Shown here: one piece after another, positions 612-49,865 of the stretch
Layout: every line of letters begins with the position of its first letter
Position numbering within the stretch: position 1 is the first letter of the stretch
NCBI GenBank assembly: GCA_016126655.1
Contig: CP065955.1
Location: 1,781,001 to 1,845,000 of the forward strand
From: Aerococcaceae bacterium zg-1292
Lineage (GTDB): Bacteria; Bacillota; Bacilli; Lactobacillales; Aerococcaceae
Reading direction: 5' to 3'
Length of the DNA: 64,000 nucleotides
Notes under the pieces: generated by a model
The model's database searches: none
Seen by the model: the letters and a program-made list of their open reading frames with translations, nothing else
What the model was told of the DNA's origin: nothing
Translations under genes and position numbers: made by a program

Positions 612-830
612 CACATTGTGCGACATCGTGCGCTCAGAAATGAATCACTGGAGAAAGATTGCTGATGCGTCCACACGCTTCAAAAACTTTGTGAAGTGGA
701 GGTCATTTCTGCTCGTCGGAGCCGTTATACACATTGTGCGACAGCGTGCACCTAGAAACAATTCCCTGCTTGCCGCTCGTAAAACAGTAGGAGCCAATCA
801 CAATGACCAGCTCCCACAATCATTCAAACA
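612..830. repeat. Intergenic palindromic repeat: one full unit plus a degenerate one
   Basis: A CACATTGTGCGA motif occurs at 612-623 and again at 730-741, giving a unit of 118 bp. Inside, CAGAAATGA (635-643) pairs with TCATTTCTG (703-711), around an inner hairpin GCGT/ACGC (667-677). The second unit, 730-830, is shortened and degenerate. It has the same plan as the repeats at 14.6, 29.1 and 31.3 kb. A short open frame across it is a by-product of the repeat. The remaining 501-611 stretch holds no other feature I can support. Confidence 0.75.
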
Positions 831-7535: not shown

Positions 7536-7751
7536 TATCTTCTCCTCCTTATTCTGGTTTACATTCATTGATTTGATATTCGCTCTAACAGCGATATCTG
7601 CACGCCGATAACTTTATCTAGCAGTCTCTTTCAAAAACACATCCTGTTTTTTTACCACCAATCAAAGCACTTTTACTCACACCATGAGATGTTCGCAAAT
7701 AATTGGCTACAAACTGCGATTAAAACGATTTAACGAATATTCGGCGTTCGC

Positions 7752-12634: not shown

Positions 12635-14453
12635 TCTCGCAAAAAAAAGAAGAGAACCTTATTCTTAAAGTTATCAGCCCATAAGAAAGAAGAGGTTCTC
12701 TATGCAAGCAATTATAACTCAAATTCTATCGATTTTAAAGAAAAATGACTCATTATTTAGTTCAGAAGCAATGCTTAAACTATTTTTTGAAGAATTAACC
12801 AAATTATTAATGGAATATGCATTAAAACAGTATGAACAAGAGTGTATCCATCAATATAAAACAGAAGGATGGGAGCTGGAACGAAAAGAATCTCGAACCA
12901 TTAATTTCACTTTTGGAGAAGTAACGTTTAAACGATACCGTATGCGCAAAGAAGGTGAAAAAAGTGTAATTCCATTAGATAAATCTTTATCCTTACCGGC
13001 ACGTGAACACTATTCACCTGGCGCTAAAGGTCAAATGATTGCGATTATTGATGGGATGACCTATCGCAAAGCGGCTGAAACCATTAACTCACTATGTCCA
13101 TATACAGTATCGCACCAAAGTCTTCATAAAGTGGTTCAAAAGGAAGGTAAATTAGCGAAAGAATGGTTAAAGGAAGACATACAATGTGAGGACGAATTGA
13201 AGAAGGTAAAACATTTATTTATTGAAGCGGATGGCGTATTAATTAAAAGCAAAGCAAAAGGTAAGCATGAAGAAATTCATCGAGCAGTCGTGCATGAAGG
13301 GGTAAAAAAAGTTGGTGGACGGACGGTTTTAATCAACGCAAGAATGATTACTAGCATGTTATCTAGCCGACAACTATTGAAAGAAGTGTCATTCTATATA
13401 GAATCCCATTACAAAACAAACGATACCATTATAATTACTAATAGTGACGGCGGCAGTGGCTATGAATATGATAAATTTAATCATATACTTGGTAACCGAG
13501 CAGCACACGAACATTTTACCGATTCATACCATGTCAATCAAAAAATCCAGAAACGATTGGCGCACGATCCAGAGATGATAATACTAATCAGAAAAGCGAT
13601 CTATGAGCATAACTGGGAAAAAGTCGTCGCAGTGTTAGATACAGCAGAGAGTCGCTGCTTAGTAAGAAACGGGTTGGATGTATCCGCACAGCTCAATGAA
13701 ATACAACGATTAAAGAATTATTTATATAAGCACTGGCCATATCTTCAACCTCGGCACATGAGACCCCACGAGGTGCCACGAGGAGGTATCGGCGTGATTG
13801 AGAGTAAGCATCGCAGATGTACTTATCGGATGAAATATCAGGGACGTAATTGGACAAAGTCAGGAGCAGAAAATATGGTAACGCTGATTACGTTGAAAGA
13901 AAATGGATTATTAGAGGCGTACTTAAGAAGAAAAGAGATAGAAAGCAGCGTATTAGACGACGAACCGATTGAGGTGACGAAGCGAAGAATGAGTACCTAT
14001 TTGAAGGAAACAATCAGAGATTCCAAAGGCGCATTATCAGGTCGAATTCCTAATAGTGGGTCAACAAGTAGTTCAATCGGCGTATTGAGAAAATCCGTGC
14101 TGTAATTTATCACTGAGAAAAAATATAAGTTAAAAAAGGAAGTTAATCGTCTTTGCTTACCTTGAAGTGTCAATTAATTTGATTGTAAAAGCAGTTGATT
14201 GGAGAGGTTGGGAGGGGGAGGCTTATTAAAGAGCCTTCCACTCTCTAGCACCACTTTACTTATCTTTAGAATCGAGTACGCTTGAAAACCCGACCGTAAA
14301 ATTCAGCGCTTGTGTGAGGCGGTCGGGGTGACCCCGTACTCACTCGATTCTAAAGATTAGTCAAGTGATGCGGTAATAGAAATAATTTTAATGAACATAT
14401 GAATCAAATATGCTGGAAACTTTAAGGAAAAGATTTTTGATAGATTTCCGAGA
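12635..14453. mobile_element. ISLre2-type insertion sequence
   Basis: The element holds one transposase gene (12702-14105). The ends are estimated from an imperfect inverted repeat of about 40 bp. The left end (from 12635) and the complement of the right end (to 14453) both begin TCTCG and later share CTTAAAGTT. Before the right end is a strong hairpin (14262-14357): a 17-bp outer stem based on ATCTTTAGAATCGAGT, and an inner CCCGACCG/CGGTCGGG stem. No clear target duplication was found, so ends may be off by several bases. It separates uvrA from its former upstream neighbour. Confidence 0.75.
12702..14105 (+). CDS. ISLre2 family (UPF0236) transposase
   Basis: The 467-residue protein has the UPF0236/ISLre2 look. 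The N-terminus carries GWELERKESRTINFTFGEV. YSPGAKGQM and the repeated-helix motif TYRKAAETIN follow, then an acidic HLFIEADGVLI, TNSDGGSGY, and the C-terminal GVIESKHRR. Length is full for the family (about 450-490) with no internal stop or frameshift, so the copy may be active. The start ATG follows AGAAGAGG closely. It is divergent from uvrA and convergent with htrA. Confidence 0.9.
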   Translation: MQAIITQILSILKKNDSLFSSEAMLKLFFEELTKLLMEYALKQYEQECIHQYKTEGWELERKESRTINFTFGEVTFKRYRMRKEGEKSVIPLDKSLSLPAREHYSPGAKGQMIAIIDGMTYRKAAETINSLCPYTVSHQSLHKVVQKEGKLAKEWLKEDIQCEDELKKVKHLFIEADGVLIKSKAKGKHEEIHRAVVHEGVKKVGGRTVLINARMITSMLSSRQLLKEVSFYIESHYKTNDTIIITNSDGGSGYEYDKFNHILGNRAAHEHFTDSYHVNQKIQKRLAHDPEMIILIRKAIYEHNWEKVVAVLDTAESRCLVRNGLDVSAQLNEIQRLKNYLYKHWPYLQPRHMRPHEVPRGGIGVIESKHRRCTYRMKYQGRNWTKSGAENMVTLITLKENGLLEAYLRRKEIESSVLDDEPIEVTKRRMSTYLKETIRDSKGALSGRIPNSGSTSSSIGVLRKSVL

Positions 14454-14557: not shown

Positions 14558-14578
14558 GTTTGAGGCTGATGCCCGCGC

Positions 14579-14826
14579 TCGCACTATGTTTATGCCGGCT
14601 CCACCTCGCTGAAATGACTCCACTTCAAAAGCCGCCGTTGTGCGTTACTCGCACGCCGTTGGCTTTCTCCAGTGGTTCATTTCAGAGCGCTCGTTGTCGC
14701 ACTATGTTTATGCCGGCTCGCTTGGGTTGACTTGACATCCACTTCGCAAAACGCTTGGAGTGCTTATCGCACTCCGGCGCATTTTACTCCAGTGGTTCAA
14801 GTCAGAGCACCCACGCTCGCACTATG
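14579..14826. repeat. Two tandem palindromic intergenic repeat units
   Basis: TCGCACTATG recurs at 14579, 14697 and 14817, giving units of 118 and 120 bp. In unit one CTGAAATGA (14609-14617) pairs with TCATTTCAG (14677-14685). In unit two the outer arms have another sequence, TGACTTGA (14728-14735) and TCAAGTCA (14797-14804), yet still pair. Inner hairpins are GTGCG/CGCAC and GGAGTGC/GCACTCC. The conserved unpaired boxes are CCACTTCG and CTCCAGTGG. The array stops 2 bases from the htrA stop codon. Confidence 0.9.
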
Positions 14827-14828
14827 TT

Positions 14829-16154
14829 TTACTCTTGGCCTTGTCCTTGGTCTTGTTCTGGGTCTTCGGATTCGCGGCCGTAAGGGACTGCTTCTTGATA
14901 GGATGGTGCTGTTTGAGGTATTTGAGGTGCTTGGGCTTCTAATGTAACAGTTACTTGTTGTTTTTTACCATTACGCATAATTGTTAATTTTACTTTTTCG
15001 CCCACTTTATGTTTGTATAATGCTTGACGTAAGCTAATTAAATCATTAACTTCATCGCCTTCAATAGCTTTGATTACATCATATTGCTCTAATCCTGCTT
15101 TAGCTGCCGAACTATTTGGCGCTACTTCAGCGATAACGACCCCTTTATCGTCATTTTCAGGTAATTTCAAAATCTCTGTTTTAGAACGTGCTGATAATTG
15201 GCTCACAGCATATACGCCGTTGATTCCCAATACTGGACGGATGACTTTACCATTTGCTTCTAATTCTTCAATAACTCTTTTCACTTCGTTACTAGGAATA
15301 GCAAATCCCATACCTTCTACCGATACCTTCGAAAACTTACTTGAGTTAATACCAATGAGATGGCCATCTTTATTGACTAATGCCCCACCTGAGTTACCTG
15401 GATTAATTGCTGCGTCCGTTTGTAGTACATTCATTTCCCAATCTTTTTCACCGTCGCCATTAATATCAAATGGTAAAATACGGTTAACGCCGGATACAAT
15501 CCCTTGCGTTACAGAACCCGCATAATCTGTTCCTAATGGTGACCCAATTGCTACTGCTAAAGAACCTACTTTTATTTTATCAGAGTCAGCAAATTTGACA
15601 CTTGTTTTCGCGTGTTTTGAACTAATTTTTAATACTGCTAAGTCTGTATACACATCTGACCCGACTAATTCGGCATCTTCTTTCGTACCATCAGCTGTGG
15701 TTACTTGCAATTTTGCAGCGCCGTTAACAACGTGGTGGTTCGTCACAACATAGGCGGTATCACCATCAACACGGTATACAACCCCACTACCTGAACCTGC
15801 TGGCTGTAAGGCTTCATCTTTTTCACCTAAGTCGATATCGCCCCCTTCACCATAGCCGTAGCCGTAACCACGACCATCACCAAATGGCGAATTTTCACGT
15901 GGCATAGTGCGTTTAAAATTGGTAACAGAAACAGCAGCATCACTAGCCGCCTCCACAGCACCAACAATCGCACTTTCAAAATCTGTTAATGTCTTGGAAC
16001 TATCTGCTTCTGCTTGAACAACTTTACTTTGTGGTTTGGTAAAGCCCCCATTAAAGAAAGCAAATCCTATTAACGAAATAATCAACAAACTACCGATGAT
16101 GCCTCCAAAAATACTTTTCCAAAATGTAGTCCGTTGTTTTTCTTGTTTATCCAT
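14829..16154 (-). CDS. htrA: Membrane-anchored serine protease HtrA/DegP
   Basis: Surface quality-control protease. A cytoplasmic N-tail precedes a transmembrane anchor at about residues 13-33. The trypsin-like domain has the triad His (VTNHHVV), Asp (TDLAVLKI) and Ser (GNSGGALV). One PDZ domain follows, and the tail is rich in Pro, Gln and Glu. The start at 16154 (MDKQEKQ) is eight bases after AAGGAG; an ATG six bases upstream is too close. In related genomes htrA follows walJ directly; here an IS1634 element sits between them, so htrA must use its own promoter. A 14-bp palindrome (16194-16207) lies upstream of it. Confidence 0.95.
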   Translation of the reverse strand: MDKQEKQRTTFWKSIFGGIIGSLLIISLIGFAFFNGGFTKPQSKVVQAEADSSKTLTDFESAIVGAVEAASDAAVSVTNFKRTMPRENSPFGDGRGYGYGYGEGGDIDLGEKDEALQPAGSGSGVVYRVDGDTAYVVTNHHVVNGAAKLQVTTADGTKEDAELVGSDVYTDLAVLKISSKHAKTSVKFADSDKIKVGSLAVAIGSPLGTDYAGSVTQGIVSGVNRILPFDINGDGEKDWEMNVLQTDAAINPGNSGGALVNKDGHLIGINSSKFSKVSVEGMGFAIPSNEVKRVIEELEANGKVIRPVLGINGVYAVSQLSARSKTEILKLPENDDKGVVIAEVAPNSSAAKAGLEQYDVIKAIEGDEVNDLISLRQALYKHKVGEKVKLTIMRNGKKQQVTVTLEAQAPQIPQTAPSYQEAVPYGRESEDPEQDQGQGQE

Positions 16155-16193
16155 CGTCATTACTCCTTTTCTCAATATTTATTTTGACTTTCT

Positions 16194-16207: not shown

Positions 16208-16307
16208 ATGTGAACTTAAATCAGAATTAAAAATAACTATAATTCTTTCCTCAACGTTTCGCTACATTCATTGCTGAACAATTTTAGTGTAACGTCTGAG
16301 TATGAAT

Positions 16308-18061
16308 CCCAAACTCCCGTACCATTATACCTAGCTAACGGATACTGAAAGAAGGATGCAAAATACCTAGGCGTTCAAAAATCTTTGCTTGTTTATTCGT
16401 TACCTCTGCCAGCGTGTAGTTTCCACCACCATCGATATATGTATACACGCTCTTAATTTCTTCCAGTAAGTCTTTAAGAGTGTATTTTTCATCTAATTTT
16501 GTTCCCCGCATCTGCTCTCTCAGGTAAGACTCTACGACTACCGTTAAATACTGTACAAACATTTTCCCCTCTGTCGTCTCTTGCCCATGAGTTCTCAACC
16601 GTCTCATCTCTAAATCATTCTTTAATGTTTGAAACTTCTTCTCAACTATATCCTTGTCTCGATATATCCGTAAACATTCTTGTGAACTTTGATTACTGTT
16701 GGATAATAGTACAAATGTGCCCATTGTCGCAATGCGTTTTTTGATTACTTCTGTATTTAAAGAATACCGGTTATCCTCTGGATTTAAAGTCACATACGTC
16801 ATCAATCCTCGATTATTACTTTCGATTTCTTTTCTACTTTTTTCATCTTCATTCAATAAAGTTAATAATTCATCTAAGTCCTCCATCAATTTTGTTTTTT
16901 GCTGGTATTGTTGAAATTCATCATGATAAACATGCACAGTTACTGGATAATGACTCGTTTCGGAAGCTCTAAAATGACTAATTTTCTCTGAACCAATATA
17001 GAGTTTTTCTTTCGTTGAATAATGTTCAATTTCTTTTATTTCTGGCAGTAATCGTTCAATCACTTCATCAATATATTTCACTCCACGCTTTCCACCTGCT
17101 ACAAATTCAACACCTTCTTCACACAACATTTGGATATTTCGTTCTTTATAAAACCCTCTGTCTAATACCAATTTTTTCATTTTCTGTGGAAACTCATCCA
17201 ATAAACTTAATAATGTCTCAATGGTTTTAGAGTCGACAATATTCCCTGGAAGCAGGCGATACATTACTGGTATCCGGCTTGTTTCCCCTACAACTAGTCC
17301 TAAATTCACTTGCTTTAATTTATCATCTTCTTTGTTATAACCGTATTTTGCATAATCTATATCTGAATATGTCGAAATGGATGTTGTATCAAATACCCAA
17401 TATTCTTCATTTATATATCGTTGTTGTTGCGCATGAAAGAACCGTTGCTTATCATCTTCACTGATTGTAGCGAATAGTTCACTGACACGCTTTGAACTAA
17501 GGTCTTTGGTTAACTCTGTTTCTACTTTTGTTTGCCACTGGTCGAATTCTCTAATGGAATTCCCTGGTTCTAGAATCAAATATTGCATAAGCGTTAATAA
17601 CTCGAGATAGCTGTCTGGAAATATTTCTTTTAAATCACTCAATACACCCATTTTTTTCGCTAATTCCGTCAATAAATAAGTTGCTCCGTAAGACTTAATT
17701 GAACGGACGCCACCTGTTTTTTTCTCGTCATTCTTTTCAACATGTTTAGGTTTTCTCCCTCTTGGTTGAGTTGGAACAATCGCACCCGTTACTGGGTCAA
17801 TTTTTCCAATCAACTTACGCTTTGGTCGCGCTTGTTTCTTTTCTTTATCATAATATGAGGTTGATTCATAAACATACTTAGTTCCATTTTTATGTGTGTA
17901 GATAACTTGTGACATGGTAAGCCTCCAATAATTGATATAGGTACAATTTATTTTACCATTATACCTATAAAATAGCAATAGAAAACACCGAAAAAATACT
18001 AGTATTATCAGTTTTTTCGGTGTAAATGTTTTTTTAGTATAATTTAATTCGGGAGTTGGGG
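16308..18061. mobile_element. IS1634-type insertion sequence with 6-bp target duplication
   Basis: The terminal inverted repeats begin CCCAAACTCCCG (left, 16308) and CCCCAACTCCCG (right, complement ending 18061), and both continue to ATTATAC. The flanks are ATGAAT on both sides (16302-16307 and 18062-18067), a target-site duplication that fixes the 1,754-bp element exactly. An internal hairpin with AACACCGAAAAAA/TTTTTTCGGTGT arms (about 17983-18023) lies behind the right end, upstream of the transposase gene. Insertion is in the walJ-htrA spacer. Confidence 0.92.
16335..17915 (-). CDS. IS1634 family (IS4 superfamily) transposase
   Basis: The 526-residue DDE transposase starts at ATG 17915 (MSQVIYTHKNGTKY), just after GGAGG; the open frame running upstream to 18110 crosses the IS end and is not real. 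The first catalytic Asp is in VFDTTSISTYSD, the second in LVLDRGFYKE, and the Glu region is EKKFQTLKNDLEMR. It is full length and uninterrupted, so probably functional. Confidence 0.93.
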   Translation of the reverse strand: MSQVIYTHKNGTKYVYESTSYYDKEKKQARPKRKLIGKIDPVTGAIVPTQPRGRKPKHVEKNDEKKTGGVRSIKSYGATYLLTELAKKMGVLSDLKEIFPDSYLELLTLMQYLILEPGNSIREFDQWQTKVETELTKDLSSKRVSELFATISEDDKQRFFHAQQQRYINEEYWVFDTTSISTYSDIDYAKYGYNKEDDKLKQVNLGLVVGETSRIPVMYRLLPGNIVDSKTIETLLSLLDEFPQKMKKLVLDRGFYKERNIQMLCEEGVEFVAGGKRGVKYIDEVIERLLPEIKEIEHYSTKEKLYIGSEKISHFRASETSHYPVTVHVYHDEFQQYQQKTKLMEDLDELLTLLNEDEKSRKEIESNNRGLMTYVTLNPEDNRYSLNTEVIKKRIATMGTFVLLSNSNQSSQECLRIYRDKDIVEKKFQTLKNDLEMRRLRTHGQETTEGKMFVQYLTVVVESYLREQMRGTKLDEKYTLKDLLEEIKSVYTYIDGGGNYTLAEVTNKQAKIFERLGILHPSFSIR

Positions 18062-18131
18062 ATGAATTATTTTCGAAAATATTGTTAACATTATCCATAT
18101 TTTTATCCAAAACTTGCTACAATATAAAAAA

Positions 18132-20990: not shown

Positions 20991-21091
20991 GTTCACTTGC
21001 TCGCTTGGATTGACTCGGCATCCACTTCGCATAGTTCTTCAAGAGCTATGCTCCTGTAGTTCGGGTCAGAACACCCGCGCTCGCACTTTGT
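20991..21091. repeat. Single palindromic repeat unit
   Basis: This is a shorter copy of the intergenic repeat family. TGACTCG (21011-21017) faces CGGGTCA (21062-21068), pairing with one G-T wobble. The inner hairpin is GCATAG/CTATGC and the right border is TCGCACTTTG. It ends 5 bases from the histidine-kinase stop codon. Confidence 0.75.
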
Positions 21092-21095
21092 TCAC

Positions 21096-22409
21096 TTAGA
21101 CAATTGGAAAGACTACACATAGACTAAACCAGTTATCTTGTACATCAACGGTCATATTACCATTGTACTTTTTCGCTATATATTGAATATTTTTTAAGCC
21201 GTAACCGTGATTTTCGGTATCTTGCTTAGAGGTTTTGGGTAATGTTGTCAAATCCATCGTTTCATCCAGACAGTAATTATCGACACGCAAAATCACCATT
21301 TTTCCTTTATTGGATAATTTCAATGTCACCAAGCGTTTTTCAACCGCCTCAATTGTCTCGACATGTTCAATCGCATTATCAAGCGCATTGCCAAATAAAC
21401 TACAAATATCCATTATTTCCATCTTATGTAGTAAAGAACCATTGGCGATACACGTAAAATTAATATCATGGTCTTGGCAATACATATTTTTACGGGTCAA
21501 GATGGTATCCAATACACCATTACCGGTTTCGATTTTATGACTCAGCGTATCAATTGCTTCACGTAAAGTTGCTAAATACTCTTGACGTACTTGCAAATCA
21601 TCTTCTGCTAAAATTGCTGCAATTTGGTGCTTCAAATCATGCGCCTTACGATTAATATAATGGGTATTTTCAGCATAAGCTTTATATTGCTGATACTGTG
21701 ATTGAAAAAGATTTTGTACCGCATCTAATTCGCGGCGACGGTGCTGGTCAATCAATTGATATTGTTGCAAATACAATAGACTCATCCCTGAAATATTAGC
21801 AATCGTACGGACAAAGAACACTGAATATGAATTACCTAAATGAAATTCTGTCTTCGTAAGCACAAATCCAATATTACTAATAATAAAAATAATGACACCG
21901 GTCAATGCAAACATCATCGAAGCACGCATCGAAACATTGTTAATGAGGCGCTGATAGTTAATATTTTTATCGAGCGCAATAATCAGTGCGGCAATTGCGC
22001 CAAAGATGCTGGCAACGAACAAAAATTCTAACCAAAAATACGTCAATGAGTAACGCCACAATAACATCACGAATAATTGCCAGGCTAATGACGCCATCAG
22101 CTCCGAAATAATAAATGCCTTCACTAAAAAGATAATAATAATCGACCTGCGTACGCGCGTTAACGCATGAATAAAGCCAGCCATCCACAAAATATTCACT
22201 AACATCCCGGGAATCCATAACCACAGTGGCCATTCACCAACGAAAAACTGCAAAGCGACTTGTCCGATTAATCCAATAATTGCCATTCCAAGCGTTGATT
22301 GAAGACTTTGCTTAGTAATAATTGGATAGATACAAATAAGACAGGCCATCCATTCGGCTAATGCCGTATACAAACGCGGGATGTCTGGTAATGCTGCTTC
22401 AAAAATCAT
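21096..22409 (-). CDS. AgrC/ComD-like sensor histidine kinase (GHKL)
   Basis: The start is ATG 22409, overlapping the response-regulator stop by four bases (ATGA). About 200 residues form six or so membrane segments, as in peptide-sensing HPK10 kinases. The phosphoacceptor is in INRKAHDLKHQ, the N-box in GNALDNAIEH and the G-box in HGYGLKNI. The protein ends with an ATPase domain of normal length. The signal is unknown: no small peptide gene or AgrB-like processing gene is found next to it. It forms a coupled pair with the upstream LytTR regulator. Confidence 0.9.
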   Translation of the reverse strand: MIFEAALPDIPRLYTALAEWMACLICIYPIITKQSLQSTLGMAIIGLIGQVALQFFVGEWPLWLWIPGMLVNILWMAGFIHALTRVRRSIIIIFLVKAFIISELMASLAWQLFVMLLWRYSLTYFWLEFLFVASIFGAIAALIIALDKNINYQRLINNVSMRASMMFALTGVIIFIISNIGFVLTKTEFHLGNSYSVFFVRTIANISGMSLLYLQQYQLIDQHRRRELDAVQNLFQSQYQQYKAYAENTHYINRKAHDLKHQIAAILAEDDLQVRQEYLATLREAIDTLSHKIETGNGVLDTILTRKNMYCQDHDINFTCIANGSLLHKMEIMDICSLFGNALDNAIEHVETIEAVEKRLVTLKLSNKGKMVILRVDNYCLDETMDLTTLPKTSKQDTENHGYGLKNIQYIAKKYNGNMTVDVQDNWFSLCVVFPIV

Positions 22410-25062: not shown

Positions 25063-27495
25063 TTATTGATTCACGGTCGTTTTTTGCTTTATCGCCCTTT
25101 GATTAGCGAAATACGCTTTGACTAATCGATGGCTGCCTGTAAAGAAATGCCCATTTACAATCGTTAAAATATGATTTACCATCTCAGAATTGATTAAGCC
25201 ACCGGTCATTTTCCCCATCGCTCGAAACGTCATATTATAATTGAAGTATAAGTTTAAATTCGGCTTTCCTTTTTTCATACTGCGCTCTAAGAAATACGTC
25301 AGCACACGGTACGCCAAGCGTGCTAGCGGACTTTTAGCATAATACATTTGCGATAAGGTATCATTGCGCGTTAAATCTGCTGACTTATCCCATTGTGATT
25401 CAGGAATCGCAAAACCTAATAAAGCTTCAAATTCTTGTGAGCTGACTGCTGCAACCTGCGCATTAAAATAACTCGGTATAGTCTCAGCAACATAAGGTAC
25501 AACATTCGTAGTCGCTTCCTTTTCAATTGTATCAACGAGCGGTAAATTTCGTGAGTGCGGTCCTACTTCAATCGTATAGACCCCACCATCTATTTCCCAT
25601 TGATTCGTTTTAACATTAAAATACTGGAAACTACGTTCAGGAATTGTCAATGTCACTTGACGACTTTCGCCAGGCTGTAAAGTAATTTTTGCAAAATTGG
25701 CTAATTGATGTTTGGCATAAAACGTCCGTGTGGACTCATGACCAATATAAAGCTGCACAATTTCACTACCGGTAACGTCACCTGTATTCATAACAGTGAC
25801 ACTCGCTTGATTGCCTTGAACGTGTAAATCACGGTACTCAAAAGTTGTATAGCTTAAGCCATAGCCAAATGGAAACGCAACGTCTTTATCAGCTGTATCA
25901 AAATAGCGATACCCAACAAAAATTCCTTCACGGTACTCACTCGTCTTTTCTAAACCAGGATAGTAATTGGCACTTGGTACATCTTGATAACGTAATGGAT
26001 AGCTTTCTGCCAATTTGCCTGAAGGATTAATCGTACCCGTTAAGACATCCATCATCGCACGTGCACCTGCTTGACCTCCTAAATAACCATGCACCATTGC
26101 TGGCACTTTAGTTAAAAATGGCAACTCAACAGCTGACCCGCCCGATAATATCACAACTGTGTTGGGATTAACCGCTGCAATGGCTTCAATTAAACGCAGT
26201 TGGTCTTCACTCAATTGCATATGCGTGCGGTCCATCCCTTCAGACTCTGTAATTTCTGTTAAACCGACAAAGACTAATGGAACTTCAACTTGAGTAGCTA
26301 CTGCCACCGCTTCACTGATAAGTGCTTCGTCTACCACACCAGAGCGATGATACCCTTGTACCACTTGCGCGTCAGCAAATCCATAATTCGCTTTTACCGC
26401 TTCGATTGTTTCTAAACGAGTCGGATTGACAACCGAAGACCCCGCTCCTTGATAGCGTGGTGTCGTCACAAAATCGCCAATAAAAGCAACGGTTTGTTTC
26501 GATTGTATTGGCAATATCTGCCGTTCATTTTTAAGTAATACAATCGCATCTTGTGCTACTTGATAAGCTAGTTGATGGTGCTGTTCTTGCGTTACTGGCG
26601 TTAATGATGTCCGTTTTTCGACATTGGTTTGATATAATTTCATCACTTTATCAAGCAACTCATCGACACGTTTATCTAGAATAGCTTCCGGCAAACGTCC
26701 CTCTTTGACTGCCCGCTCTAATTCCATGGCGCCAGATACGGCGGTTCCCGGCATTTCTAAATGACTGCCCGCTCTAACACCTGCTGCATGGTCATTACTA
26801 CCGCCCCAGTCAGTAACAATCACACCCTCATATTGCCAGTCCTTGTATAATATTTCTTCTAATAAATGTTGGTGTTCATTCGTATATACACCATTCAACT
26901 GATTATACGCTGTCATCATGAAGTCTGGCTTTGCTTGACGTACCACTGTTTCAAATGCTTGAAGATAAATTTCTCGCAGTGTCCGTTCATCCACAATTGA
27001 ATCATTCGACATCCGACGCAACTCTTGACTATTCGCCGCAAAATGTTTCGGACAAGCAGCCACACCCTCTTGTTGAATTCCTTTAACATAAGCACCTGCT
27101 AAGGCAGCCGTTAACATCGGGTCTTCACTAAAATATTCAAAATTACGGCCACATAATGGATTGCGCTTAATATTCATCCCTGGCCCTAAAATGACATTAA
27201 CGCCCAATTCTTTAGCTTCTTTTCCTAAAGCTCGCCCTACTTGTTCAGCCAAATGAATATTCCAACTATTCGCTACGGTCGCAGCCGTTGGAAAACACGT
27301 GGAGGGGATACTTTCATTTAAGCCAAGATGGTCAGCATCACCTAATTGTTTACGAATACCGTGCGGCCCATCGGATAAGAAAATGGATGGAATTCCATAT
27401 TTTTCAAAATCTTTGGTTTCCCATGTACTTTTTCCTGTCATCAGCTGCGCCTTTTCAAACACAGACATTTTTTCTATAATTGATTGATACTTCAT
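25063..27495 (-). CDS. Glycoside hydrolase family 3 beta-glucosidase
   Basis: An 810-residue cytoplasmic enzyme (no signal peptide). The GH3 N-terminal barrel has SDGPHG and KHFAANSQE, and the nucleophile Asp is in VIVTDWGG. The GH3 C-terminal domain has LSGGSAVELP and GYLGGQAGARAMMDVLTG, and a fibronectin-III-like domain (FQYFNVKTNQWEIDGG) follows. A further about 150 residues beyond the usual end are rich in aromatic and basic residues. Likely releases glucose from imported beta-glucosides. A candidate cre site and a palindrome lie upstream, pointing to CcpA and specific control. Confidence 0.93.
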   Translation of the reverse strand: MKYQSIIEKMSVFEKAQLMTGKSTWETKDFEKYGIPSIFLSDGPHGIRKQLGDADHLGLNESIPSTCFPTAATVANSWNIHLAEQVGRALGKEAKELGVNVILGPGMNIKRNPLCGRNFEYFSEDPMLTAALAGAYVKGIQQEGVAACPKHFAANSQELRRMSNDSIVDERTLREIYLQAFETVVRQAKPDFMMTAYNQLNGVYTNEHQHLLEEILYKDWQYEGVIVTDWGGSNDHAAGVRAGSHLEMPGTAVSGAMELERAVKEGRLPEAILDKRVDELLDKVMKLYQTNVEKRTSLTPVTQEQHHQLAYQVAQDAIVLLKNERQILPIQSKQTVAFIGDFVTTPRYQGAGSSVVNPTRLETIEAVKANYGFADAQVVQGYHRSGVVDEALISEAVAVATQVEVPLVFVGLTEITESEGMDRTHMQLSEDQLRLIEAIAAVNPNTVVILSGGSAVELPFLTKVPAMVHGYLGGQAGARAMMDVLTGTINPSGKLAESYPLRYQDVPSANYYPGLEKTSEYREGIFVGYRYFDTADKDVAFPFGYGLSYTTFEYRDLHVQGNQASVTVMNTGDVTGSEIVQLYIGHESTRTFYAKHQLANFAKITLQPGESRQVTLTIPERSFQYFNVKTNQWEIDGGVYTIEVGPHSRNLPLVDTIEKEATTNVVPYVAETIPSYFNAQVAAVSSQEFEALLGFAIPESQWDKSADLTRNDTLSQMYYAKSPLARLAYRVLTYFLERSMKKGKPNLNLYFNYNMTFRAMGKMTGGLINSEMVNHILTIVNGHFFTGSHRLVKAYFANQRAIKQKTTVNQ

Positions 27496-28849: not shown

Positions 28850-28965
28850 ATGCTGACTCCAACGAACTGAAAGAACTTCCGCTTCACAAATCGTTAGCAG
28901 TTCTTAAGTACTTCTACGAGCTTTGCGCCAGTGATTAATTTCAAACACTCATTGGTACAGTTTTT
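28850..28965. repeat. Degenerate copy of the palindromic repeat
   Basis: The remnant keeps CTGAAAG near the left arm, CTTCACAA, and CCAGTGATTAATTTCA in the right half, the same order as in intact units but with many changes. It lies just upstream of the methyltransferase start. 28966-29062 holds nothing else I can support. Confidence 0.4.
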
Positions 28966-29062: not shown

Positions 29063-29313
29063 CACATAGTGCGACAACGAGCGCTCTGAAATGAACCACT
29101 GGAGGAAGTCTCCGTCGTGCGCGTCAACGCACAGAGGAGACTTGTGAAGCGGATGTCATTTCAGTGAGTTGGAGCCGACATCCACATAGTGCGAGCGAGG
29201 ACGTTTCGCCTTGAACCACTGGAGCAGCGGTCGTCGAAGCGCCAATGCGCTTCAAGAGCTATGTGAAGTTGGATGTCAAGGTAGTCCGAACGAGCTGGAA
29301 TACCATAGTGCGA
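29063..29313. repeat. Two tandem palindromic repeat units
   Basis: CACATAGTGCGA stands at 29063 and 29183, and a variant at 29303, giving two 120-bp units. Unit one pairs CTGAAATGA (29086-29094) with TCATTTCAG (29156-29164), with inner stems AAGTCTC/GAGACTT and GTGCG/CGCAC. Unit two pairs CCTTGA (29209-29214) with TCAAGG (29276-29281), with inner GAAGCGC/GCGCTTC. These units are inverted relative to those at 14.6 and 31.3 kb. Confidence 0.9.
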
Positions 29314-29316
29314 CAA

Positions 29317-29350
29317 CGAGCGCTTTGAAATAACATTATTTCAGAGCGCC
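29317..29350. repeat. Short hairpin derived from the repeat, just before cof
   Basis: GCGCTTTGAAATAA and TTATTTCAGAGCGC form a nearly perfect 14-bp stem with a 2-base centre, as if a full repeat unit had lost its interior. It lies about 15 bases before the ribosome binding site of the Cof gene and could affect its transcript. Confidence 0.6.
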
Positions 29351-29377
29351 GAAACCAAAACAGGAGGAATATTTTTC

Positions 29378-30223
29378 ATGATTAAATTATTTGCGTCCGA
29401 TATGGATGGGACGCTATTAGACCAAAACCACGAATTAAACCAAACAAATGCCGATGCAATAAAAGCATTACAAGCTCACGGGATTGAATTTATTATTTCT
29501 ACAGGGCGTGACTACCAATCAGCACGCAACTTTTTAGCTAACTACAATATCGATTGCGCAATGATAAATTTAAACGGCGCTCAAATTTATGATGAAAAAG
29601 GACAATTGTTAGAACAGTGCCCCATCAATAATGCAACGACACAACAGGTGTTTGATTACTTAGACGAAAAGCAATTAGCTCATTCGCTCACAACACGCGA
29701 CCAATACTATTTATCGAATAAACAAGAATATCTTAATCACATGTTACAAGCGCATGATGAAATAGACAAGGTAACGCTTGCGCAAGTGACCGACAAAATT
29801 ATGGTGACATTAGACGCATCTGACTATCAATTAAGCGACGATAATCCGGTCTTTAAAATGATGGTTATCAGTGATGATGCCCAAGCATTAGATAAAGCCA
29901 GAATCTACCTAGAGTCTTTTTCTGATTTAGATATTACGTCATCTGGTCCAGGTAACTTAGAGATTACGCATATTGAAGCACAAAAAGGCTTGGCGCTTGC
30001 TAAATATTTAGCCCGCAAACATTATTCTTTTGAAGAAGTCCTAACCATCGGTGACTCGCTCAATGACCGCTCAATGTTGGCAATGTGCCCTAATAGCTAT
30101 GCGATGGATAATGCCAGCGATGAAGTTAAAGCGATGGCAGCTTATTTAGCACCAAGTAATGTCGACAATGGTGTGGCAACAATAATTCATCAATTGATTG
30201 AAAAGCAGTCGGAGGACGCATAA
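29378..30223 (+). CDS. Cof-type HAD-IIB phosphatase
   Basis: A 281-residue cytoplasmic sugar-phosphate or flavin-phosphate phosphatase. Motif I is FASDMDGTLLD, motif II STGR, the lysine motif is KGLALAKYL and motif IV GDSLNDRSML. The C2 cap between is of the Cof type. An AGGAGG-like site (CAGGAGGAA) precedes the ATG. Its stop codon directly abuts the start of the EndoU gene, so the two are co-transcribed. Confidence 0.93.
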   Translation: MIKLFASDMDGTLLDQNHELNQTNADAIKALQAHGIEFIISTGRDYQSARNFLANYNIDCAMINLNGAQIYDEKGQLLEQCPINNATTQQVFDYLDEKQLAHSLTTRDQYYLSNKQEYLNHMLQAHDEIDKVTLAQVTDKIMVTLDASDYQLSDDNPVFKMMVISDDAQALDKARIYLESFSDLDITSSGPGNLEITHIEAQKGLALAKYLARKHYSFEEVLTIGDSLNDRSMLAMCPNSYAMDNASDEVKAMAAYLAPSNVDNGVATIIHQLIEKQSEDA

Positions 30224-31291: not shown

Positions 31292-31539
31292 ACACATTGT
31301 AATATCCGGCTCCATCTCGCTGAAATGACGTCCACTTCGCAATACGCTTGGAGTGCTCATCGCACTCCGGCGCATTTTACTCAAGTGGTTCAAGTCAGAA
31401 CGCCCGCGCTCGCACTATGTGGATGCCGGCTCGCTTGGGTTGACTTGACATCCACTTCGAAAAACGCTTGGAGTGCTTATCGCACTCCGGCGCATTTTAC
31501 TCCAGTGGTTCAAGTCAGAGCACCCGCGCTCGCACTATG
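31292..31539. repeat. Two tandem palindromic repeat units, one mosaic
   Basis: TCGCACTATG at 31410 and 31530 gives a 120-bp period. The right unit pairs TGACTTGA with TCAAGTCA around GGAGTGC/GCACTCC, nearly identical to the unit at 14697. The left unit joins a CTGAAATGA left arm to a TTCAAGTCAG right arm, so the outer stem pairs only at CTGA/TCAG. The array ends 3 bases from the metQ stop. Confidence 0.88.
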
Positions 31540-31542
31540 GTA

Positions 31543-32364
31543 TTACTCTGCTTTTAGTTCAAAGGCTGGTTCTAGGTGGCCTTTTTGGGCTAATTTTTCT
31601 AAGAATTGATGAACTTCTTTTGATGTGAATGCTTTTACTAGTGCTTTGGTTGCTTCGGAGTCTTTATTGCCTTCACGTACAACTAATGAAACTGCGAAGG
31701 TTTGTTCTGGGTCTTTTTCTAATAGTAAAGCATCATCTGGGGTTAAGCCAACTTTTTCAATATAGGTTGGGTAGTTGAATACTAAATCAACGCCATCTTC
31801 ATATGCAGAGGTTAAATTTAACAAGTCCACTTCCGAGAATTTTAAATTGTGTAGATTTTTTTCAACATCGTCGATAGTCGCTTTAAAGCCAACACCTTCT
31901 TTTAAGGTAATTAAATCATAAGATGCTAAAATCAATAAAGCACGTGCTTGGTTAGTTGGGTCAGATGGCACCGCTACTGCTGCGCCGTCTTTTATGTCTT
32001 CTAGCGATTTATATTTTGATGCGTAGAATCCGACACGTGCATTATACACTGGTTGAACCGCTACTAAGTCACCTTTATTGGCTTCATTAAACATTTCCAT
32101 AAATGGCGCGTGTTGGGCAAAGTTTGCGTAAACTTCGTCATTTAATAATGCTTCGTTATACTGTATATTGTCAGATACTTCGACTAATTCGACTTTATAA
32201 GGCTCTTCAATAACCTCATTCACTAATTCAACAATATCTGTCATTGGTGGTAAATGTGATGCGACTTTTAAAACCGTTTTTTCCTCAGCCAAAGCAGCTG
32301 GAGCCGCAAAAATTGATGTAGCCGTCACAGCAGCTAATAATAATGATAAACTTTTTTTCAACAT
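31543..32364 (-). CDS. metQ: MetQ/NlpA family substrate-binding protein, no lipobox
   Basis: Binding component of a methionine-type ABC importer. The start at 32364 (MLKKSLSLLL) is eight bases after AGGAG. A clear signal peptide ends near AALAEEK. The mature part shows VKVASHLPPMTDI-like and DPTNQARALLIL features of the NlpA fold. Members in Gram-positive bacteria are normally lipoproteins, yet there is no cysteine anywhere near the cleavage site, so as read the protein would be released or held by other means. It lies 29 bases after metI. Substrate could be methionine or a relative. Confidence 0.88.
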   Translation of the reverse strand: MLKKSLSLLLAAVTATSIFAAPAALAEEKTVLKVASHLPPMTDIVELVNEVIEEPYKVELVEVSDNIQYNEALLNDEVYANFAQHAPFMEMFNEANKGDLVAVQPVYNARVGFYASKYKSLEDIKDGAAVAVPSDPTNQARALLILASYDLITLKEGVGFKATIDDVEKNLHNLKFSEVDLLNLTSAYEDGVDLVFNYPTYIEKVGLTPDDALLLEKDPEQTFAVSLVVREGNKDSEATKALVKAFTSKEVHQFLEKLAQKGHLEPAFELKAE

Positions 32365-32399
32365 AATCATCTCTCCTAATTATTTCAATATATATTTGC

Positions 32400-40063: not shown

Positions 40064-40084
40064 ATTCTCTCCTCTTATTCCAGT

Positions 40085-40195
40085 TCCTCTTACTGCCTCG
40101 GCATCCACTTGATGAAGTTAACTCTATGCGTCTTATGCACCCAGTAACTTCTCCACGTGTTTCGTGGCAATGCGCCTGCGCTCAGACTATCTATA
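40085..40195. repeat. Degenerate palindromic repeat between ddl and murF
   Basis: The remnant keeps TGCC..GGCATCCACTT on the left and a CCACG/CGTGG hairpin followed by TGCGCTCAGACTAT on the right, matching family landmarks in order. It sits just upstream of the murF ribosome binding site. Confidence 0.45.
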
Positions 40196-49689: not shown

Positions 49690-49865
49690 AGAAAAAAACT
49701 CAGCGAGAGAAGATACGCTGGTTTGAATCAGTGGAGAAGACAATAGGATGAACAAGCATACACAGAAGAGTGATGTCCAATCAACTTGTGCGAGCCTCAC
49801 AATCATATTGCGCCAAGGGGCGCTTTGAATCTCTTCATTTGAATGCATCGAAACTGGTGTTATTT
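49690..49865. repeat. Remnants of the palindromic repeat in a 626-bp gene-free gap
   Basis: CAGCGAGAG, GTTTGAATCAGTGGAGAAG, GATGTCCAATCAAC and GCGCTTTGAATCTC keep repeat landmarks but no good pairing. The rest of the gap (49866-50287) holds one short hairpin, AATGCctACCTTATAAGGTaaGCATT (49870-49895), and AT-rich DNA with no convincing gene. Confidence 0.35.

Follow-up and report, generated by a model that had tools for sequence, protein, structure and literature searches.

An apparently undescribed family of intergenic hairpin repeats with a conserved, RNA-like fold in Aerococcaceae bacterium zg-1292 and other Lactobacillales

Repeat units and their gene context in the window

The window analysed here, a stretch of 64,000 nucleotides of the genome of Aerococcaceae bacterium zg-1292 (contig CP065955.1, positions 1,781,001 to 1,845,000), contains eight well-kept hairpin units of about 115 nt, together with weaker or partial copies, as called by a search with the covariance model R1 (Table 1). 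At least seven well-kept units had been claimed in the initial annotation, and units are indeed present at the places claimed, the positions given there being those of the common CGCACTATG border box. Hereafter, E designates the strand that folds, which is sense to the neighbouring gene and opposite to the strand of the model.

Table 1. Hairpin units of the window, with the strand of E, the strand of the R1 match and the evidence for each
Feature	Coordinates	E strand	Model strand	Evidence
Single unit, CAGAAATGA/TCATTTCTG arms	614..726	+	-	R1 84.8 bits
Array remnant at far end of array: 5' box plus beginning of outer arm	14569..14589	-		Seen directly in sequence
Unit of the reported array, GAAATGA/TCATTTC arms	14594..14706	-	+	R1 107.2 bits, sequence
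Unit of the reported array, GACTTGA/TCAAGTC arms	14712..14826	-	+	R1 124.6 bits
Unit with shortened inner hairpin	20995..21090	-	+	R1 62.9 bits
Degenerate unit	28852..28962	-		R1 41.4 bits
Unit 1 of tandem pair, ahead of gene 29378-30223(+)	29065..29179	+	-	R1 103.6 bits
Unit 2 of tandem pair, CCTTGA/TCAAGG arms	29185..29299	+	-	R1 90.0 bits
Internally shortened unit	29304..29359	+		R1 32.2 bits, sequence
Unit with mismatched arms (recombinant)	31305..31419	-	+	R1 94.8 bits, sequence
Unit	31425..31539	-	+	R1 125.2 bits

In the reported array, the E 5' end of the 124.6-bit unit lies 2 nt past the stop codon of an HtrA-like gene (14829-16175, minus strand; junction GAGTAAAACATAGTG), and that of the 125.2-bit unit lies 3 nt past the stop codon of a gene for an NlpA/MetQ-type lipoprotein (31543-32370, minus strand). 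The unit with the shortened inner hairpin is located between a stop codon (21096-21098) and the Shine-Dalgarno sequence (SD) of the next gene, with GTGAAC on each side, and the internally shortened unit directly precedes the SD (AGGAGG) and ATG of gene 29378-30223. In a sister species of the same genus (G003), the syntenic site of the former unit is empty, the region of the first unit of the tandem pair is missing and the 125.2-bit unit is not in the syntenic region. The unit at 31305-31419 has a 5' arm of the GAAATGA type and a 3' arm of the TCAAGTCA type, and is therefore a mismatched recombinant; the initial annotation, according to which every arm change is matched by its partner, was correct for the arms that it named, which are present and paired, but not for this unit.

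Weak model matches (13-29 bits) at 7553-7686, 40079-40191 and 49701-49799 may be decayed copies. The window also encodes (i) a UPF0236-family ORF (12702-14105) that adjoins the reported array, the syntenic region of G003 having neither ORF nor array, (ii) an IS1634-type insertion sequence (16302-18070) with a 591-aa DDE transposase and five more near-identical copies in the genome, and (iii) a GH3-type glycosidase (25063-27495), whose named relatives belong mostly to Butyrivibrio or other Lachnospiraceae (about 50-53%) and to Ruoffia (59%), a hint of horizontal transfer.

Copy number, range and long forms

The genome (2.42 Mb, G000) contains at least 302 exact-core copies and none of the reversed pattern, 80 blastn matches at E <= 1e-3 and at least 150 covariance-model matches, all of 80 bits or more. 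Since the exact pattern misses some clear units of the window, the true number is probably nearer 500. Within the genome stretches fetched around copies, 244 units were found in 130 groups, including tandem arrays of up to six units with linkers mostly of 5-6 nt, the arrays examined having come from the higher-scoring matches.

A broader model matched 64 of the 395 genomes of the order; these belong to several families and to 21 of 80 genera. Within one genus, some species have 1-2 copies and others hundreds (at least 137). Some relatives add a spacer and an intrinsic terminator, reaching about 175 nt, and others an extra stem with a CUAAAG loop, which gives a branched form of about 230 nt. 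The 175-nt relatives (L228-L241) end in an intrinsic terminator of the GAGGCTGGGACTTTTGTCCCAGCCTC type, the 3' arm of which could, as judged from its letters, pair with the 5' end of the element, either as terminal inverted repeats or as an alternative fold. In the 230-nt relatives (L248-L260; G201, G126, G122, G049 and G140), which have no Rfam match, the extra stem-loop stands just before ACTGGA within a branched, RNA-like fold. Among the plasmids and phages searched, the short form had no match and the long form had one, in an Aerococcus tenax replicon.

Rfam 15 returned no family in the window at the gathering threshold, and at permissive thresholds no match covered the units. Literature searches by organism, idea and sequence fragment, which mostly did not reach subscription papers, found no description of the family, which is apparently undescribed so far.

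Fold and arm covariation

Each unit is one long imperfect hairpin of about 113-117 nt. On E, the 5' half is composed of CATAGTGYGA, an outer arm, a bulge of 3-4 nt, a middle arm, A, CCACT, GGAG and a variable inner hairpin, past which the 3' half continues with GA, AGTGG, AYG, the middle arm, the outer arm and GARCCRGA. In an RNAalifold consensus of 36 units, 11 of the 19 pairs show double changes. Watson-Crick pairs occupy 89% of the stem cells in 228 distinct units, against 70% after permutation, and the top ranks by corrected mutual information are taken by stem columns.

Covariation was further measured against shuffle and slide controls. Among 70 units from several genera, 95.6% of the cells pair and covariation amounts to 0.586, compared with 0.154 for shuffled and at most 0.123 for slid alignments; for 28 units taken order-wide, 94.4% of the stem cells pair (70.6% when shuffled), with a covariation of 0.647 (0.200 when shuffled). 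The latter units were aligned with MAFFT and their structure was written by hand, so that they were not fitted to a model. In other genera, the arms have no sequence kinship to those of the window, yet pair equally well, and the purine loop boxes and the bulge persist. The repeat family is genuine and has a conserved RNA-like fold. The conclusion of the initial annotation, that arms compensating in this way point to a folded hairpin that is either selected for or copied, is supported by the double changes and by the genome-wide and order-wide covariation, which exceeds the controls.

Several features indicate which strand folds. E folds better than its complement in 214 of 228 units and in 27 of 28 order-wide, and nearly all of its conserved unpaired letters are purines. 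Order-wide, the CACT helix has UG or CG, but never UA, as its basal pair, in keeping with E being the strand that folds. Wobble asymmetry was rejected as a proof of RNA: the excess of G-U on E (221, against 101 A-C) equals the C>T bias at unpaired positions and is confounded by it.

Placement relative to genes

With gene borders taken from heuristic ORF calls, 77 of 83 co-oriented gene pairs have E in the sense direction; by context, 78 arrays are co-directional and sense, 13 convergent and 17 divergent. Within 5 nt of a stop codon or an SD lie 66 of 77 co-directional arrays, whereas uniform placement gives 28 (maximum 37 in 5000 simulations). On E, 58 of 130 arrays are followed by an SD and a start codon, most often at a distance of 2 nt; on the opposite strand, this holds for 3 of 130. 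Units are found 0-3 nt past stop codons in other Aerococcaceae genera and 0-16 nt past them in several relatives elsewhere in the order. No common function is evident among the adjacent genes examined, which include metG and an htrA-type gene. Arrays located directly 5' of an SD end mostly in ACCAGA and other copies mostly in GCCGG (G000, L079-L144), which makes two location subtypes.

The orientation of the units also tracks the replichore, in 109 of 130 arrays. This bias is real but is accounted for by gene orientation, since 6 of 8 elements next to lagging-strand genes take the direction of the gene and the sense rule holds overall; targeting of a replication strand was therefore rejected.

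Presence or absence at syntenic sites, nesting and search for a mobilising enzyme

Arrays of G000 have syntenic empty sites in G003; conversely, one site, placed before TAGGAG, is filled in G003 and empty in G000. One further site is occupied in both genomes, which may mean that some copies are of old date or that selection maintains their positions. In about 20 units, a complete second unit interrupts the sequence at CACTGGA or beside it. The 4 nt preceding an array recur at tandem junctions in 74% of cases (53% by chance), and tandem growth therefore copies some of the 5' flank. Scattered copies in G201 and G051, 172-192 bp long, share 97-100% identity (about 30 matches in G201) and, from this near-identity, look recent. 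The similarity of left and right flanks is only slightly above the null (0.44 against 0.39), a weak signal without a clear target-site duplication.

A transposase with matching ends, as suggested in the initial annotation, was not found. The regions fetched contain no autonomous, gene-carrying copy, and no insertion sequence with ends matching the long form was identified, the ends of the IS1634-type copy of the window being different by eye. Two candidate mobilisers were rejected because they do not track copy number: (i) a Y1 transposase, Y1_Tnp being absent from five high-copy genomes (G009, G010, G011, G018 and G020), reduced in G000 to a broken relic with four in-frame stops (C1:2019606-2019962, L031), near which no hairpin unit was found, and present as 18 matches in G021, where the repeat has none at the same threshold; and (ii) a reverse transcriptase, RVT_1 being missing from six high-copy genomes (G009, G017, G020, G064, G122 and G126).

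Possible nature of the family

The balance of the evidence tips slightly towards a family of short, non-autonomous, spreading structured elements that reside in mRNA 3' and intercistronic regions. The conserved property would be the imperfect hairpin of about 115 nt on E, 5'-CATAGTGYGA...GARCCRGA-3', of which the pairing and the purine loop boxes, and not the sequence of the arms, would be read, so that the arms drift by paired changes. Copies would enter at gene borders, directly past a stop codon or directly before an SD and sense to the gene; as a consequence of this placement, they should be carried by mRNAs as 3'-UTR or intercistronic hairpins if the genes are transcribed as usual. A putative factor would recognise the hairpin of E, as RNA or single-stranded DNA, and copy or move it, and insertion at borders would presumably be tolerated because ORF and SD stay intact. 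Once transcribed, the hairpin could act on the mRNA by blocking 3' exonucleases, by exposing a site for RNase III-type cleavage or, for the long form, by termination; analogy with other repeats that are transcribed makes an influence on the ends or the stability of the mRNA likely.

A bolder form of this interpretation is tentative: a bacterial SINE-like system, in which an RNA-like folded strand would be recognised order-wide by its shape and purine loops and inserted in sense at stop codons or SDs by an undescribed mechanism, with a terminator, an extra stem or a nested unit as optional modules.

Alternatively, the units could serve the host as cis-acting RNA elements (for mRNA processing, stability or the insulation of translation) that are copied by recombination and kept at gene borders by selection, mobility being minor or past. 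Exact abutment to stop codons or SDs, sense orientation, loop boxes kept order-wide, the long form with its intrinsic terminator and the distinct 3' end of SD-adjacent copies (ACCAGA instead of GCCGG) would all suit such a role. This explanation is nevertheless unlikely: sister species of the same genus manage with only 1-2 copies, G201 and G051 have recent-looking, near-identical scattered copies, units are nested in units, and the neighbouring genes examined share no evident function.

Quite improbable is a miniature inverted-repeat element (MITE) moved by a DDE transposase, with an incidental hairpin and a short window form that has lost one end. Such an element would explain why the 5' end of the long form, AAGAGAGTGGGACAAAA, is similar to the complementary sequence of the 3' terminator arm, AAGAGGCTGGGACAAAA, and it accords with the 97-100% identity of the 172-192 bp copies and with presence or absence at syntenic sites. 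However, the 3' repeat is a terminator palindrome in its own right, ends of this kind are lacking in the short form, no matching insertion sequence was found (including the one in the window, by eye), and plain terminal inverted repeats explain neither the covariation of the inner stems nor the border rule.

Neutral palindrome correction, in which template switching from arm to arm copies mutations and yields covariation without function, is consistent with the few wobble intermediates in the stems, but is very improbable, because the parts most conserved order-wide are the internal loops, with their mismatches, and the bulge of 3-4 nt, all of which repeated correction should erase; the unrelated arms of different genera, with purine boxes and bulge retained, likewise argue against plain correction. 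The least credible explanation is a single-stranded DNA element of the REP type that a Y1 enzyme (RAYT or IS200/IS605) inserts into the lagging-strand template, for although the hairpin with internal loops, the many intergenic copies and the replichore bias (109/130) resemble one, gene orientation accounts for the bias and the distribution of Y1 described above, with no unit near the relic of G000, does not follow the repeat.

Comparison with known repeats

Small hairpin repeats are common in bacteria, and it is the mix of free arms, fixed loops, sense orientation and abutment to stop codons or SDs that is unusual here. Integron attC sites are strand-specific hairpins whose arms are free, whose boxes and bulges are fixed, and which are located past stop codons. 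The present units share all of these traits, as a likeness only; unlike attC sites, they show no cassette structure, and their neighbours include chromosomal metG and the htrA-type gene.

Like the pneumococcal BOX, RUP and SPRITE repeats, the units are small, interspersed, intergenic repeats of Lactobacillales with predicted stem-loops, modular copy number and insertion of repeat into repeat (PMC3049150). BOX, RUP and SPRITE are over-represented between convergent genes (PMC3049150), whereas the hairpin units lie mostly between co-directional genes, abut stop codons or SDs, and have arms that are free in sequence and fixed in pairing. The distinction is one of published gene context; the initial annotation, too, recognised neither BOX nor RUP in the units. 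REPs are palindromes of 20-40 bp that carry GTAG or CGTC as a tag tetranucleotide and have a Y1 transposase as their partner (PMC3733652). As in REPs and BIMEs, the hairpins are extragenic, many-copy and possibly non-autonomous and transcribed (PMC3733652), but they differ in their length of about 115 nt, in common ends (CATAGTG and CCRGA) without a GTAG or CGTC tag, and in the failure of Y1 to track copy number. In brief, the family behaves like other transcribed hairpin repeats, but has neither the REP tag, the Y1 association nor the gene context of BOX and RUP, and no Rfam match; a known family, which had been considered a possible outcome, was thus not met with in Rfam or, as far as gene context tells, among BOX, RUP and SPRITE.

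Correia/NEMIS and ERIC are transcribed hairpin repeats able to alter the mRNA with which they are co-transcribed, including by cleavage (PMC3049150); the likeness is one of description, as hairpin repeats that are, in the present family, presumably transcribed. The family makes it possible to test what guides such repeats to their sites and whether operon mRNAs are remodelled by them wholesale. A mobiliser, if found, would show recognition of a folded strand by its shape and aiming at gene borders. Finally, the TAACTGA repeats of Beggiatoaceae also occur in many copies, a few nucleotides upstream of start codons, and a post-transcriptional role has been suggested for them (PMC4679880); TAACTGA is a direct repeat of 7 nt, whereas the family of the window is a covarying hairpin.
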